A stretch of 5,987 nt of DNA, taken from positions 1,177 through 7,163 of the forward strand of contig JALGUK010000322.1 of the NCBI GenBank assembly GCA_029820875.1. The letters run 5' to 3'. The DNA is from Candidatus Zipacnadia bacterium (GTDB lineage Bacteria; Armatimonadota; UBA5377; JALGUK01). Below are positions 674 through 4,827 of the stretch, piece after piece. The first letter of the stretch is position 1. Every line of letters begins with the position of its first letter. Position numbers and translations under genes: made by a program. The notes beneath the pieces were generated by a model. That model had not been told where the DNA came from. It was given only the letters and a program-made list of their open reading frames with translations, and ran no database searches.

Positions 674-1438
674 ACGCCTTCCAATGCTCAGATAGTCACA
701 TTCTTCCTCGTCCTTGCACGCGTGATGGGCGTCACCATCTTCGCCCCTCTCATCGGTACTCGATTCGTCCCGACAGCCGTGAAGATGGCCGTTGCCGTGG
801 CCCTCGCTGTGATACTGGCGCCGCTGATTCCGACACTCCGCGTTCAAAACCTCCAACTGACGGCCTACGCGCTGTTGGCTCTCAAGCAGCTTGCAGTCGG
901 AATGATGATAGGCTACCTGGCATCCCTTCTGTTGATTTGTGCCGAGATGGGCGGTCGGCTCCTTGACGTTCAAATTGGCATCAGCGCCGCCCAGTTGTTC
1001 GACCCCTCCGCTGGTGACCAGATTGCGGTTTTAGGCCGTATGTATCACACTATCGCCATGATGGTATTCCTCGCCATCAATGGTCACCATTGGCTGATTC
1101 TCGGCGTTTTCAAGAGTTTTCAGCTTGTCCCGGTGGGAGAGATTTCTCTTTCCCCGGGTAGCTTCAATGCTGTTTTCATTTTGCTCTGGCGGTCTTTGGA
1201 GATTACTCTTCGAATTGCCGCCCCGGGCATCGCCGCCCTTTTCCTGGCCGATGTTACCCTTGGCCTCATTGCACGTGCAGTCCCGCAGATGAACGTTTTC
1301 TTCGTTGGTATCCCGCCTAAGATTTTTTTGGGCATCATTATCCTCGCCCTCGCATCGCCCTTTATCGTCTCTGCGATGAGCAGCGTTATCGGCAACATGC
1401 CTTATTATCTCGACGCATTGCTGAAGAGCCTTAGATAG
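674..1438 (+). CDS. fliR: FliR, flagellar export-gate protein, probable ACG start
   Basis: Third membrane subunit of the FliP-FliQ-FliR gate, with a predominantly hydrophobic sequence. Conserved FliR blocks are present: FFLVLARVMG, FAPLIGTRFVP, a Met/Gly-rich GMMIGY segment, GGRLLDVQIG and a C-terminal FLGIIILALASPF. The first conserved block is encoded at 701-727, upstream of the first in-frame GTG (722), so GTG 722 would cut off the N-terminal helix and has no Shine-Dalgarno. The frame is open back to the TGA at 581-583 and has no ATG, GTG or TTG in that stretch. ACG 674 lies 8 nt after AGGAGG and gives a protein starting with PSNAQIVTFF after the initiator. It is 254 residues long, close to the usual 255-265. 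The out-of-frame ATG at 684 stops after three codons. The frame and family are certain; the start codon is an inference. Confidence 0.88.
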   Translation, partial: TPSNAQIVTFFLVLARVMGVTIFAPLIGTRFVPTAVKMAVAVALAVILAPLIPTLRVQNLQLTAYALLALKQLAVGMMIGYLASLLLICAEMGGRLLDVQIGISAAQLFDPSAGDQIAVLGRMYHTIAMMVFLAINGHHWLILGVFKSFQLVPVGEISLSPGSFNAVFILLWRSLEITLRIAAPGIAALFLADVTLGLIARAVPQMNVFFVGIPPKIFLGIIILALASPFIVSAMSSVIGNMPYYLDALLKSLR

Positions 1439-1460: not shown

Positions 1461-2546
1461 ATGGACGCCGCATCGAAAACTGAAGCCCCAACTGCCCTCA
1501 GGCGTAGGGAGCTTCGGGAAAAAGGTCAGGTCCTCAAAAGCCCTGATGTCACCGCAGCTCTGGCATTTTTGGGAGCCGTGTTGGTCATCAAACTCGCTGG
1601 TCCATCCTGCCTGCGCCGCCTGCTGGGAACAATGGCCGCTCTACTCTCCCTCCCGCCTCTCCCCCACTCTCCGCCGGTGACGGTAAGATGGCTTGTGTTC
1701 TGGCTGTCTGAGGGCGCAAAGGCGGCGATTCCTCTGGTCGCTGCGTGCCTGGTGGTAGGCCTCGCCGCAAACTTTGCCCAGGTCGGCTTCTTGGTGACAG
1801 CCAAACCTCTAAGCCCTCGATTTGACCGCATCAACCCTGCTGCCGGCGTCGCCAGGTTATTCTCCAAGCGCTCGCTTGTCGAGTTGTTTAAGGCCTTTGT
1901 AAAGATTCTGATGATTGCCCTCGTCGCCCTCGCCACTTTGCGCAGGTACATCCCCGACGTTGCCAATCTTTCCAACTTTTCTCTGCTTGCTGCGGGTACG
2001 GTGGTTGCAAGAATCGCCTTTGAGGTGGCAGCCCGTACATGTGTTGTCTTTATTGTAATCGCCGCTATAGACTATCTGTATCAGCGCTTTGAACACGAAC
2101 GGGCGATAAAAATGAGCCGTGAGGAACTCCGTGAGGAACTCAAGCGAACCGAGGGGGACCCCCATATCAAAGCCCGGCGCAGGCAGCGTTACCGTGAAGC
2201 CATCTTTGAGGGGATTACTCCAGCCATTCGTGACGCCAATGTGGTCATTACCAACCCCACCACTTACGCAGTTGCTCTCAGCTATATCCGATACCACAAC
2301 AACGCCCCTGTGGTAGTTGCCAAAGGCCGCGGCCTGCTCGCCATCCGTATTCGGGCGCTCGCTGAACAGTTCCATATACCGGTTGTTGAAAGCCCGCCCC
2401 TCGCGCGCTCCCTTTATCGTTCCACTCGGCTCGGCCAGGAAATTCCAGCGAGCCTCTATAAGGCCGTCGCCCAGATACTTGTAACCATCTATCGCCAGGC
2501 CGCCGAGCGCCGCCGGCGCATCTTGCGCCGGAGCGCCTTCGCGTAA
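1461..2546 (+). CDS. flhB: FlhB, export specificity-switch protein with NPTT cleavage motif
   Basis: Inner-membrane export protein whose cytoplasmic C-terminal domain switches the secretion system from rod/hook to filament substrates after autocleavage. It is 361 residues, near the family norm. The N-terminus carries KTEAPT and REKGQVLKS (19-27). Four membrane segments lie at about 30-48, 88-112, 142-165 and 193-212. The MSREELREELKRTEGDP linker follows, with TEGDP at 230-234, then the cytoplasmic domain. The cleavage motif, NPTH in most FlhB/YscU proteins, reads N265-P266-T267-T268. The Asn-Pro scissile pair is kept but the His is replaced. The C-terminus is Arg-rich (ERRRRILRRS). The ATG follows the fliR stop by 22 nt with a weak GGGTG (1446-1450) as ribosome site. 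The family assignment is secure; the effect of the Thr is not known from sequence. Confidence 0.96.
   Translation: MDAASKTEAPTALRRRELREKGQVLKSPDVTAALAFLGAVLVIKLAGPSCLRRLLGTMAALLSLPPLPHSPPVTVRWLVFWLSEGAKAAIPLVAACLVVGLAANFAQVGFLVTAKPLSPRFDRINPAAGVARLFSKRSLVELFKAFVKILMIALVALATLRRYIPDVANLSNFSLLAAGTVVARIAFEVAARTCVVFIVIAAIDYLYQRFEHERAIKMSREELREELKRTEGDPHIKARRRQRYREAIFEGITPAIRDANVVITNPTTYAVALSYIRYHNNAPVVVAKGRGLLAIRIRALAEQFHIPVVESPPLARSLYRSTRLGQEIPASLYKAVAQILVTIYRQAAERRRRILRRSAFA
2513..2531 (+). other. GC-rich 8-bp hairpin in the last codons of flhB
   Basis: CCGGCGCA (2513-2520) and TGCGCCGG (2524-2531) are perfect inverted repeats separated by TCT, 13 nt before the flhB stop. No T run follows, so it is not an intrinsic terminator. 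It falls in an Arg-codon cluster (CGC/CGG), which can create such symmetry by chance. A role in mRNA stability is possible but unsupported. Confidence 0.4.
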
Positions 2547-2618
2547 GCGCCTCTCCCCTCTTCGCGACACTGGGGATGGATGGCTTCCTCCAGGCATGGA
2601 CAAGGGAACCATAGCGAT

Positions 2619-3131
2619 ATGAACATCAAGCGCCGATTCAAGCAAATCTCCAACTACTCGGACGTTGCCCTTGCCGTCGGCATCGTCGCCATCATACTCG
2701 TCATGGTCATTCCGCTGCCGCCGGTGGTCCTCGATATGTTGCTTTCACTCAATATCGGCGTGAGCCTGTGCATTCTCCTTGTTGCCACCTATATCACCCA
2801 GCCCCTTCAGTTCTCCGTCTTCCCTTCCATCCTGTTGCTTGCTACTCTCTGGCGCCTCGCCCTCAACATCTCCGCCACCCGCCTTATCCTCCTGCATGCC
2901 TACGCTGGCCGAGTCCGCCACCCGCCTTATCCTCCTGCATGCCTACGCTGGCCGAGTCATAGAGGCATTCGGCAGTTTCGTCGTTGGCGGCGATTTCGTC
3001 ACTGGCCTGATTATCTTCCTGATAATTGTCGTCATCCAGTTTGTCGTCATCACAAACGGCGCTCAACGAGTAGCGGAAGTCGCCGCCCGCTTCACCCTCG
3101 ACGAAATGCCCGGCAAGCAGCTCAGCATTGA
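2619..3131 (+). CDS. flhA: FlhA 5' fragment, the frame that would be translated from the flhA start
   Basis: This is the 170-residue product as the sequence stands. Residues 1-98 are genuine FlhA: a basic cytoplasmic N-terminus, membrane segments at about 15-35, 37-60 and 68-90 including PPVVLDMLLSLN, LQFSVFPSILLL and WRLALNISATRLIL, and the loop up to HAYAGR. From V99 onward the frame is wrong, giving an Arg/His/Pro-rich tail of about 70 residues (starting RHPPYPPACLRWPS) that resembles nothing in FlhA, ending at TGA 3129-3131. A product with only three FlhA membrane segments should be inactive. Confidence 0.75.
   Translation: MNIKRRFKQISNYSDVALAVGIVAIILVMVIPLPPVVLDMLLSLNIGVSLCILLVATYITQPLQFSVFPSILLLATLWRLALNISATRLILLHAYAGRVRHPPYPPACLRWPSHRGIRQFRRWRRFRHWPDYLPDNCRHPVCRHHKRRSTSSGSRRPLHPRRNARQAAQH
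2871..2956 (+). repeat. Exact 43-bp tandem direct duplication inside flhA
   Basis: Copy 1 spans 2871-2913 and copy 2 spans 2914-2956, identical at all 43 positions. Each begins TCCGCCACCC and ends GCTGGCCGAG. The two bases after copy 2 (TC, 2957-2958) match the first two bases of the unit, so the 43-bp periodicity runs to 2958. This is the 2-bp microhomology expected at a slippage or recombination junction. Because 43 is not a multiple of 3, it shifts the flhA frame by one. The unit encodes SATRLILLHAYAGR in the loop after membrane segment 3. Confidence 0.97.
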
Positions 3132-4827
3132 CGCCGACCTCAATGCCGGAATCATCTCCACCGAGGAGACCGAGGAGGCGAAGCAACGCCGCCGTGACAT
3201 CGAGCGCGAGGCCGACTTCTACGGCGCGATGGACGGGGCCAGCAAGTTCGTACGGGGTGACGCCATCGCCGCCATCGTCATCATTATCATCAACATCATC
3301 GGCGGCCTTGTAATCGGCACCCTCCGCATGCACATGAGTGCCCTGGAAGCTCTCGAAACCTACACCCTCCTGACCGTCGGCGACGGGCTTGTCAGCCAGA
3401 TACCGGCCCTCCTCGTCTCTACTGCTACAGGCATCGTTGTCACGCGCGCAGCCTCTCAGAATAGTCTCGGTGCAGATATCCTTTCCCAGCTCACATCACG
3501 CCCCCGGGCGCTGATTATCGTCGCCGCCATATTGCTCCTTTTCGCCCTCGTCCCAGGGCTCCCAAAGGCCAGCTTCCTGTTGGCGGGTGCCCTCAGCGCT
3601 CTGATTGCATATGCCCTCCACCGCACGCCCAAAAAGCCCGCTAAGCCCCAGCCCGAACCCGCCCGCGAGCCTGACGACTTCGCAAGCCTCCTGACCGTTG
3701 ATACGCTTTCCGTGGAGATCGGCTATGGCCTGGTCGCCCTGGTGGACGAAACGCTTTCCCCTCGTCTTGCCGAAGCCGGTGCCGGTTCATCAGGCTTGGA
3801 TTCGCAGCCGCGCTCCCAAGATCAAGCCGCCGCTGACGCCGCTCTTCCTGCGAGTCGCCTGCTGGCCCGAATCACCAATATCCGCCGCCAGATGGCCCGG
3901 GACCTTGGAATCTTGGTCCCGCCCGTACACATTCGCGATAATGTCGAGCTATCCCCAAACGAATATGTCATTCGTATTCATGAAACCATTGTCGCTCGCG
4001 GGGAGGTATTTCCCCACCGTCTCCTTGCCATGTCTACTACCGACGGCGCTGAGCCTCTCCCTGGCACGCGGACGACCGAACCCGTCTTTGGTCTCCCTGC
4101 ATTTTGGATAACTGAAGCCGACCGCCCCGTCGCCGAGGCGCGCGGCTACACAGTCGTGGATGCCTCAACCGTCATCGCCACACATCTGAGCGAAACCCTC
4201 AAACGGCATGCTCACGAGATACTCTCGCACCAGGACGTCCAGGAACTGGTTGACCACCTCCGGGAATCACATCCCGCTCTGGTCAAAGAATTGATACCCG
4301 ACCTTGCCACCGTCAGCGATGTCCAGAAGATTCTCCAGGCCCTCCTCCGCGAGGGCGTGCCTATTCGCAATCTCCCTGTGATTCTCGAGGCCATCGCCGA
4401 CGGAGCGCGTGCTGAAGCTTCAGCCGACGAAATTGTCGAACTGGCCCGCGCAAGCCTTGCACGGACGATTACCGGCAGGCTCCAGGATGCTGATGGCACC
4501 CTCAATGTCCTCACCCTCTCGCCTGAGCTGGAGCAGAGAATACTAGATGCTGCCCAGCAAGCCCCGGGACGCGCCCAGCTGATACTTGACCCGCAGACCG
4601 CGCAGACGATTCTCAAAGGCGTCTCCGACGCCGCTGAACGCATGACCATCTCCGGCTGCGAGCCTGTCTTGCTTGTCTCTCCGAAAATCCGCTCGGCTGT
4701 CCGTCGCCTATTAGAACGCTCCATGCCTCATATCGCTGTCCTCTCCCATATGGAACTTCCCCCGGACATTCACATCCGCGCCGTCGGTACTGTCGACATC
4801 CCCTTGCAAGAGGCGACTATTACCTGA
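2914..4827 (+). CDS. flhA: FlhA 3' fragment: membrane segments 4-8, linker and cytoplasmic domain
   Basis: Residues here are numbered on the repaired 721-residue protein. The fragment holds a fourth membrane segment at about 109-133 (FVTGLIIFLIIVVIQFVV). The FHIPEP-family signature follows from R136 (RVAEVAARFTLDEMPGKQL then SIDADLNAG), and then the READFYGAMDGASKFVRGD loop. Four more hydrophobic segments include VGDGLVSQIPALL. A Pro/Lys/Glu-rich linker leads to the cytoplasmic domain with IRRQMARDLGIL, NEYVIRI and RNLPVILEAIADGA. A low-complexity Ala/Ser/Gln insert at about 370-398 is absent from the FlhA proteins I know. The frame is open from further upstream, including an ATG at 2779, but bases before 2914 do not encode FlhA in this frame. 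The first ATG inside the true coding part is at 3106, after membrane segment 4, so independent translation would give only a truncated protein. Confidence 0.85.
   Translation, partial: SATRLILLHAYAGRVIEAFGSFVVGGDFVTGLIIFLIIVVIQFVVITNGAQRVAEVAARFTLDEMPGKQLSIDADLNAGIISTEETEEAKQRRRDIEREADFYGAMDGASKFVRGDAIAAIVIIIINIIGGLVIGTLRMHMSALEALETYTLLTVGDGLVSQIPALLVSTATGIVVTRAASQNSLGADILSQLTSRPRALIIVAAILLLFALVPGLPKASFLLAGALSALIAYALHRTPKKPAKPQPEPAREPDDFASLLTVDTLSVEIGYGLVALVDETLSPRLAEAGAGSSGLDSQPRSQDQAAADAALPASRLLARITNIRRQMARDLGILVPPVHIRDNVELSPNEYVIRIHETIVARGEVFPHRLLAMSTTDGAEPLPGTRTTEPVFGLPAFWITEADRPVAEARGYTVVDASTVIATHLSETLKRHAHEILSHQDVQELVDHLRESHPALVKELIPDLATVSDVQKILQALLREGVPIRNLPVILEAIADGARAEASADEIVELARASLARTITGRLQDADGTLNVLTLSPELEQRILDAAQQAPGRAQLILDPQTAQTILKGVSDAAERMTISGCEPVLLVSPKIRSAVRRLLERSMPHIAVLSHMELPPDIHIRAVGTVDIPLQEATIT

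Follow-up and report, generated by a model that had tools for sequence, protein, structure and literature searches.

The closest described counterparts of the lesion analysed here lie in capsule, flagellar and other genes; one of them lies in the pneumococcal type 3 locus, in the gene named cap3A. In the accessible part of the source, sequence duplications in this locus, in cap8E and in tts are reported to control capsule phase variation (PMC4022640). Phase-variable flhA in Campylobacter coli and fliP in Helicobacter pylori are described, in the portion of the report at hand, as similar to changes in homopolymer tracts (PMC3930126). For ssp1 of fission yeast, the available text of a review describes microhomology-mediated tandem duplications that introduce a premature stop and are reversible (PMC13207564). 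Spontaneous lrp mutations of Xenorhabdus include tandem duplications of 26–116 bp, which their authors, in the sections available, hold not to be phase variation (PMC6786866).

The window considered here, that is, the whole stretch of 5,987 bp that was analysed, carries two tandem copies of a 43-bp unit inside flhA. Like the changes in C. coli flhA and H. pylori fliP, it puts a gene for flagellar export out of frame, but the unit is 43 bp long and present in two copies, and the listed relatives lack the repeat (PMC3930126, from the part available). The pneumococcal capsule genes share with it a duplication within an open reading frame, which there switches off a surface structure; that variation was shown by culture, whereas the flhA duplication is known from one contig (PMC4022640, as far as the accessible text goes). 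Two tandem copies, short boundary homology and a premature stop are likewise found in yeast ssp1, although the homology in flhA amounts to 2 bp, which is at chance level, and the host belongs to another domain of life (PMC13207564, in the text available). With Xenorhabdus lrp the common trait is a tandem duplication inside a gene; there, according to the available sections, such duplications are one of several kinds of loss-of-function mutation in isolates of known phenotype, and the gene and organism are different (PMC6786866). A literature search that covered mainly freely accessible papers returned no paper that joins spontaneous tandem duplication, a non-motile phenotype and flhA.

The window is a flagellar export operon with all genes on the plus strand, in the order fliP (end), fliQ, fliR, flhB, flhA, an flgF-like rod gene and a further rod gene of which the start is present, the last being identified by resemblance and by eye. 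The features needed below are these:

674–1438, plus strand: fliR, an open frame with a likely ACG start at 674
1461–2546, plus strand: flhB, intact; the identical protein P0121 is listed on 5 contigs
2619–3131, plus strand: upstream flhA frame, within the listed open reading frame 2580–3131; start placed by alignment to the relative P0002; PF00771, E 1.8e-27
2779–4827, plus strand: downstream flhA frame, a listed open reading frame that is FlhA from its residue 45 on; PF00771, E 5.1e-224
2871–2913, plus strand: copy 1 of the 43-bp unit, belonging to the upstream flhA frame
2914–2956, plus strand: copy 2, identical to copy 1 and belonging to the downstream flhA frame
2957–2958, plus strand: TC, the 2-bp boundary homology; 2 bp or more is reached by 16% of random 43-bp segments
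3160–3177, plus strand: a second derived repeat, the 9-mer ACCGAGGAG twice, in frame and adding ETE, from the exact scan and comparison with relatives

The fliP, fliQ, fliR, flhB and flgF-like genes match their families and contain neither a stop nor a frame change. At the expected start of fliR, ATG, GTG and TTG are all absent in frame, and an ACG (674–676) lies 8 nt past an AGGAGG (660–665); judging from these bases, fliR may initiate at ACG, or its start codon may be mutated. A 12-bp repeat in flhB (2117–2141, product REELREEL) was considered as a further duplication and rejected, because REELREEL is kept in P0122–P0124 and is therefore ancestral. Scans of viral contigs with FlhB and with a 36-base piece of the 43-bp unit gave no match.

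Both Tandem Repeats Finder (TRF) and an exact scan identified a period-43 tandem pair of 100% identity at 2871–2958 (88 bp, two copies plus TC) as the only long tandem repeat in the window, confirming the exact duplication described in an earlier note on this DNA. Twenty mononucleotide shuffles of the window contained no exact tandem pair of 9–60 bp, and the 43-bp pair is far beyond chance expectation. Division of 43 by 3 leaves 1, and the two parts of flhA sit in different frames, with an upstream stop at 3131; the gene is indeed out of frame, as had been claimed. From the ATG at 2619, the upstream frame encodes a good FlhA sequence of 99 residues whose end, ...SATRLILLHAYAGRV, lies in the first copy, and after it 71 out-of-frame residues and the stop at 3129–3131. 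The downstream frame continues with SATRLILLHAYAGRVIEAFG... from the second copy through to its stop at 4827, and its product is catalogued as a 643-aa protein (P0001), with an ATG start inside the first copy. Because both readings contain the same residues, one 43-bp copy is surplus. The PF00771 (FlhA/FHIPEP) matches on the two sides of the break are both above the curated cut-off, and the NCBIfam equivalog TIGR01398 (FlhA) gives the two parts 100.5 and 714.5 bits, below its cut-off of 772.1, as is expected of a split gene.

Comparison with relatives shows that the duplication is derived. The relatives compared were P0002–P0120 (119 proteins), the listed part of 8,000 FlhA matches, and all but P0005, that is 118, cover the site. 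None of these 118 carries the 43-bp repeat: 115 have the standard 30 residues, and the other three (P0086, P0109 and P0111) have five extra residues of different sequence, without a repeat. With one copy in every one of these 118, the listed relatives mark the duplication as the derived condition. Programmed frameshifting was rejected as an explanation, since the second copy occurs in none of the listed relatives. The nearest full relative among the matches listed, P0002, is 90% identical in FlhA, 724 aa long and intact, and its longest contig measures 89.8 kb; P0003 and P0004 are full length as well. Organism-named FlhA matches among the 120 listed are 50–52% identical (Bacillota, Armatimonadota, Chloroflexota and others), and FlhA loci from species genomes are 42–55% identical. 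For FlhB, 193 of 291 genomes from the phylum to which the genome of locus L003 belongs gave matches, with a best identity of 45% among the matches listed.

The duplication is not the only derived repeat in the gene, and the earlier description of flhA as otherwise intact has to be amended for the in-frame 9-bp repeat at 3160–3177. The conserved FlhA stretch around this site counts 36 residues in the window, against a constant 33 in each of the 118 listed relatives. The control sets contain 3.3–4.7 exact period-9 repeats per 100 kb; a single one in 6 kb is unremarkable by itself, but its site within a stretch of fixed length is remarkable.

We regard a recent, spontaneous and private short tandem duplication in flhA as the best explanation of the 43-bp pair and, by a modest balance of probability, as the right one. 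The copies are exact, adjacent, derived and frame-breaking, as in spontaneous short tandem duplications, and a frame-breaking 49-bp repeat in a single-contig genome (L134, below) speaks for such a lesion being a real mutation, as do the tandem duplications among spontaneous lrp mutations of Xenorhabdus (PMC6786866). A strand would have slipped or switched template over 43 bp during replication, and the segment would have been copied twice. The TC microhomology that the earlier note placed at the junction is present at 2957–2958 but does not exceed chance, being matched by 2 bp or more in 16% of random 43-bp segments from the window; it is therefore uninformative on mechanism, and the duplication lacks the longer-than-chance boundary homology that would mark the microhomology-mediated class. 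The extra 43 bp shift the reading frame, so that translation yields FlhA sequence only through residue 99 and ends at 3131, and a restart inside the first copy would yield at best an FlhA that lacks its first part. From the known role of FlhA, carrier cells would be expected to lack a working flagellar export gate and to be non-motile. The term essential, used of flhA in the earlier note, goes too far: the gene is necessary for flagella but dispensable for viability. That a single deletion might undo the event, as also proposed there, is supported in principle by the exactness of the copies; loss of one copy could restore the frame, which would make this a revertible null like any exact tandem duplication rather than an evolved switch.

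A sister contig of 10,102 bp, whose FlhB (P0122) is 88% identical to that of the window, also has a broken flhA. The gene is split into P0242 (213 aa) and P0005 (503 aa), which, to judge from equal contig size and sources, lie on one contig. P0242 is in frame to ...AKQRRRD, and its last 37 residues correspond to another frame of the window from 3270 (26 of 37 identical), indicating that the sister lacks about 71 nt which the window has near 3199–3269. A 101-aa fragment of a close FlhA on a 655-bp contig (P0241) parts from its relatives at the very codon in which the repeat of the window finishes, perhaps simply because its contig stops there. Among the matches listed, two of the five closest FlhA genes, that of the window included, are broken in different ways, a curious situation that fits recurrent loss, recurrent misassembly and a switch alike. 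Against a single chance duplication, the 9-bp repeat in the same gene and the different break in the sister are more than it predicts. These lesions could be taken together as snapshots of a length-change hot spot in the lineage, with fresh tandem duplications turning motility off and their loss restoring it, although no simple repeat is permanently in place; both repeats of the window, the sister's 71-nt loss and the P0241 departure would all be instances. We judge this reading very unlikely. An FlhA search at E ≤1e-60 matched 186 of 291 genomes and gave, among the matches listed, eight places with an open frame below 650 aa. Those in G165, G231 and G164 are cut off by the contig end, that in G264 ends at the last base given for the contig of L013, that in G278 starts at base 237, and G121 is another short place. 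Only G009 and G044 have a frame change within flhA, and these two stretches contain no exact tandem repeat of 9–199 bp, which argues against a general hot spot.

The age of the break was approached through relative-rate counts, that is, sites at which one ingroup protein alone differs from the outgroup. Over 379 FlhA sites, the window has 5 unique changes, P0002 has 8 and P0005 has 17; over 505 sites, the window has 7 and P0002 has 14. In 73 sites of the N-terminal part, the counts are 1 for the window, 3 for P0002 and 0 each for P0242 and P0241, and in 359 FlhB sites the window has 4 against 11 and 15. The protein branch of the window is not long, and these counts give no sign of prolonged relaxed selection, so a long-standing pseudogene was set aside. 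With the other genes open and the branch not long, the break is either recent or an artefact, rather than old decay; if it is real, the recent origin proposed in the earlier note is borne out. The same data bear on the idea that the lineage has lost motility and that flhA is one of several flagellar genes gathering lesions. Two derived length changes within flhA, the lack of ATG, GTG or TTG where fliR should begin and the broken flhA of the sister contig would fit such decay, but the other genes of the window are free of stops and frame changes, its branch carries no surplus of unique substitutions, and P0002, P0003 and P0004 are full length. We hold decay to be highly doubtful.

The main rival, as the earlier note had foreseen, is an assembly or library artefact, in which the genome itself is single-copy and an assembler or a chimeric fragment doubled 43–45 bp. 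We consider this a serious possibility that nevertheless falls short of being probable. P0001, the truncated FlhA, belongs to a two-sequence cluster, and the listing gives it just one contig, a short one of 7,163 bp; for the window's exact FlhB it gives five, the longest of 73,725 bp. Other contigs of the species would therefore seem to lack exactly this truncated FlhA, with the qualification that a differing start call would count as another sequence and that the contig count seemingly covers the cluster representative alone; it fits equally well an error private to one assembly. A cluster representative is usually the longest member, and the notion that the second member is a one-copy FlhA was dropped, because P0001 is shorter than an intact FlhA.

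To place the duplication among comparable lesions, control sequences were scanned for exact tandem repeats with a period of 18–200 bp. Three single-contig genomes (60 stretches, 1.2 Mb) contained 5 repeats, 1 of them frame-breaking: an exact 49-bp repeat at 10045–10144 of L134, which breaks a dehydrogenase gene with NAD_binding_2 matches on both sides. The draft set (102 loci, 1,014,803 bp) contained 21 repeats, of which 6 were judged clearly frame-breaking: 44 bp in L015, 38 bp in L021, 53, 55 and 56 bp in L051 and 20 bp in L069. A script rule (period indivisible by 3, at least 60 open codons on each flank) had passed 8, from which two low-complexity cases, L049 at 11521 and L051 at 18715, were dropped by eye. 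One L050 repeat has period 56 or 28 depending on how repeat multiples are handled, and ten loci of the initial scan (L023–L032, 36,386 bp, one in-frame repeat) lie outside the 102-locus count. The difference between 6 in 1.01 Mb of draft and 1 in 1.2 Mb of single-contig sequence (p 0.04), although in favour of an artefact, is weak, and the species differ between the sets. The rate varies strongly among drafts, from 0 repeats in 281,549 bp of G270 to 11 in 241,875 bp of G001. Lesions like that of flhA are thus not unusual, and in some drafts they are common.

The 44-bp repeat of L015 (195–283) breaks fliH 194 bp from a contig end, with FliH matches on both sides, the left one below cut-off. In L021 (11860–11935), the 38-bp repeat breaks fliD, with matches to the flagellin hook and FliD_C families, and another frame change lies upstream in the same gene. 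For L069, an amidohydrolase match lies on one side of the 20-bp repeat. Three exact frame-breaking repeats of 53–56 bp (268–379, 7300–7405 and 7630–7741) occur in the single 20-kb draft stretch of L051, where family matches are restricted to a weak one, below cut-off, at one repeat and are absent at the other two; that two of these breaks lie 330 bp apart in what is apparently one protein favours an artefact.

The position of the draft repeats within their contigs points the same way. They are concentrated near the ends: 11 of 21 are no more than 1 kb away from one, where 16% would be expected (p 1.6e-4), 8 within 750 bp and 6 within 500 bp; the cut-offs of 500, 750 and 1,000 bp were picked after the pattern was noticed and the test ignores repeats that share a contig. 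Four of the six clear frame-breakers lie within 750 bp of an end. The flhA duplication itself, by contrast, has 2,870 bp or more between it and the left contig end and 3,029 bp or more between it and the right one in window coordinates, which sets it apart from artefacts of contig ends and leaves room for those of other kinds. Once the ends are left aside, moreover, the clear frame-breakers of the drafts come down to two L051 cases that lie close together, compared with one in the single-contig set, the repeats show no constant length that would indicate one k-mer size, and a graph assembler needs some reads that span a junction.

The earlier note had gone on to propose that motility switches off and on as the population gains and loses the 43-bp copy. 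Exact copies can revert by loss of one, and other changes of flhA exist in the sister contig and in the fragment P0241. Duplications inside pneumococcal capsule genes are reported, in the accessible part of the source, to control phase variation (PMC4022640). The proposal is nonetheless unsupported: a contingency locus has a standing ancestral repeat able to expand and contract, and here the ancestor was single-copy, 0 of 118 listed relatives having the repeat, with boundary homology of 2 bp that is not above chance. As the ancestral gene had no repeat to expand, the step from on to off would be an ordinary rare duplication rather than slippage in a standing repeat. The sister's 71-nt loss lies elsewhere in flhA and could not be reversed by copy loss, and in Xenorhabdus lrp, according to the available sections, the phenotypic reversions of eight tested mutants (which may or may not have included the duplication mutants) were never genetic (PMC6786866). 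Given frame-breaking exact repeats of 20–56 bp in other draft genes, nothing marks that of flhA as kept for switching. We therefore think a phase-variable switch decidedly improbable; in all likelihood the duplication arose by chance, as ordinary mutations do, or through faulty assembly, and is no switch for swimming.

Taken together, these results counsel caution against inferring phase variation from draft contigs, in which frame-breaking exact repeats of 20–56 bp occur at about 6 per Mb in the set examined, often near contig ends, and read support is needed before biological claims are made. If real, the flhA duplication would add a case from an uncultured lineage to the revertible null mutations seen in motility genes.
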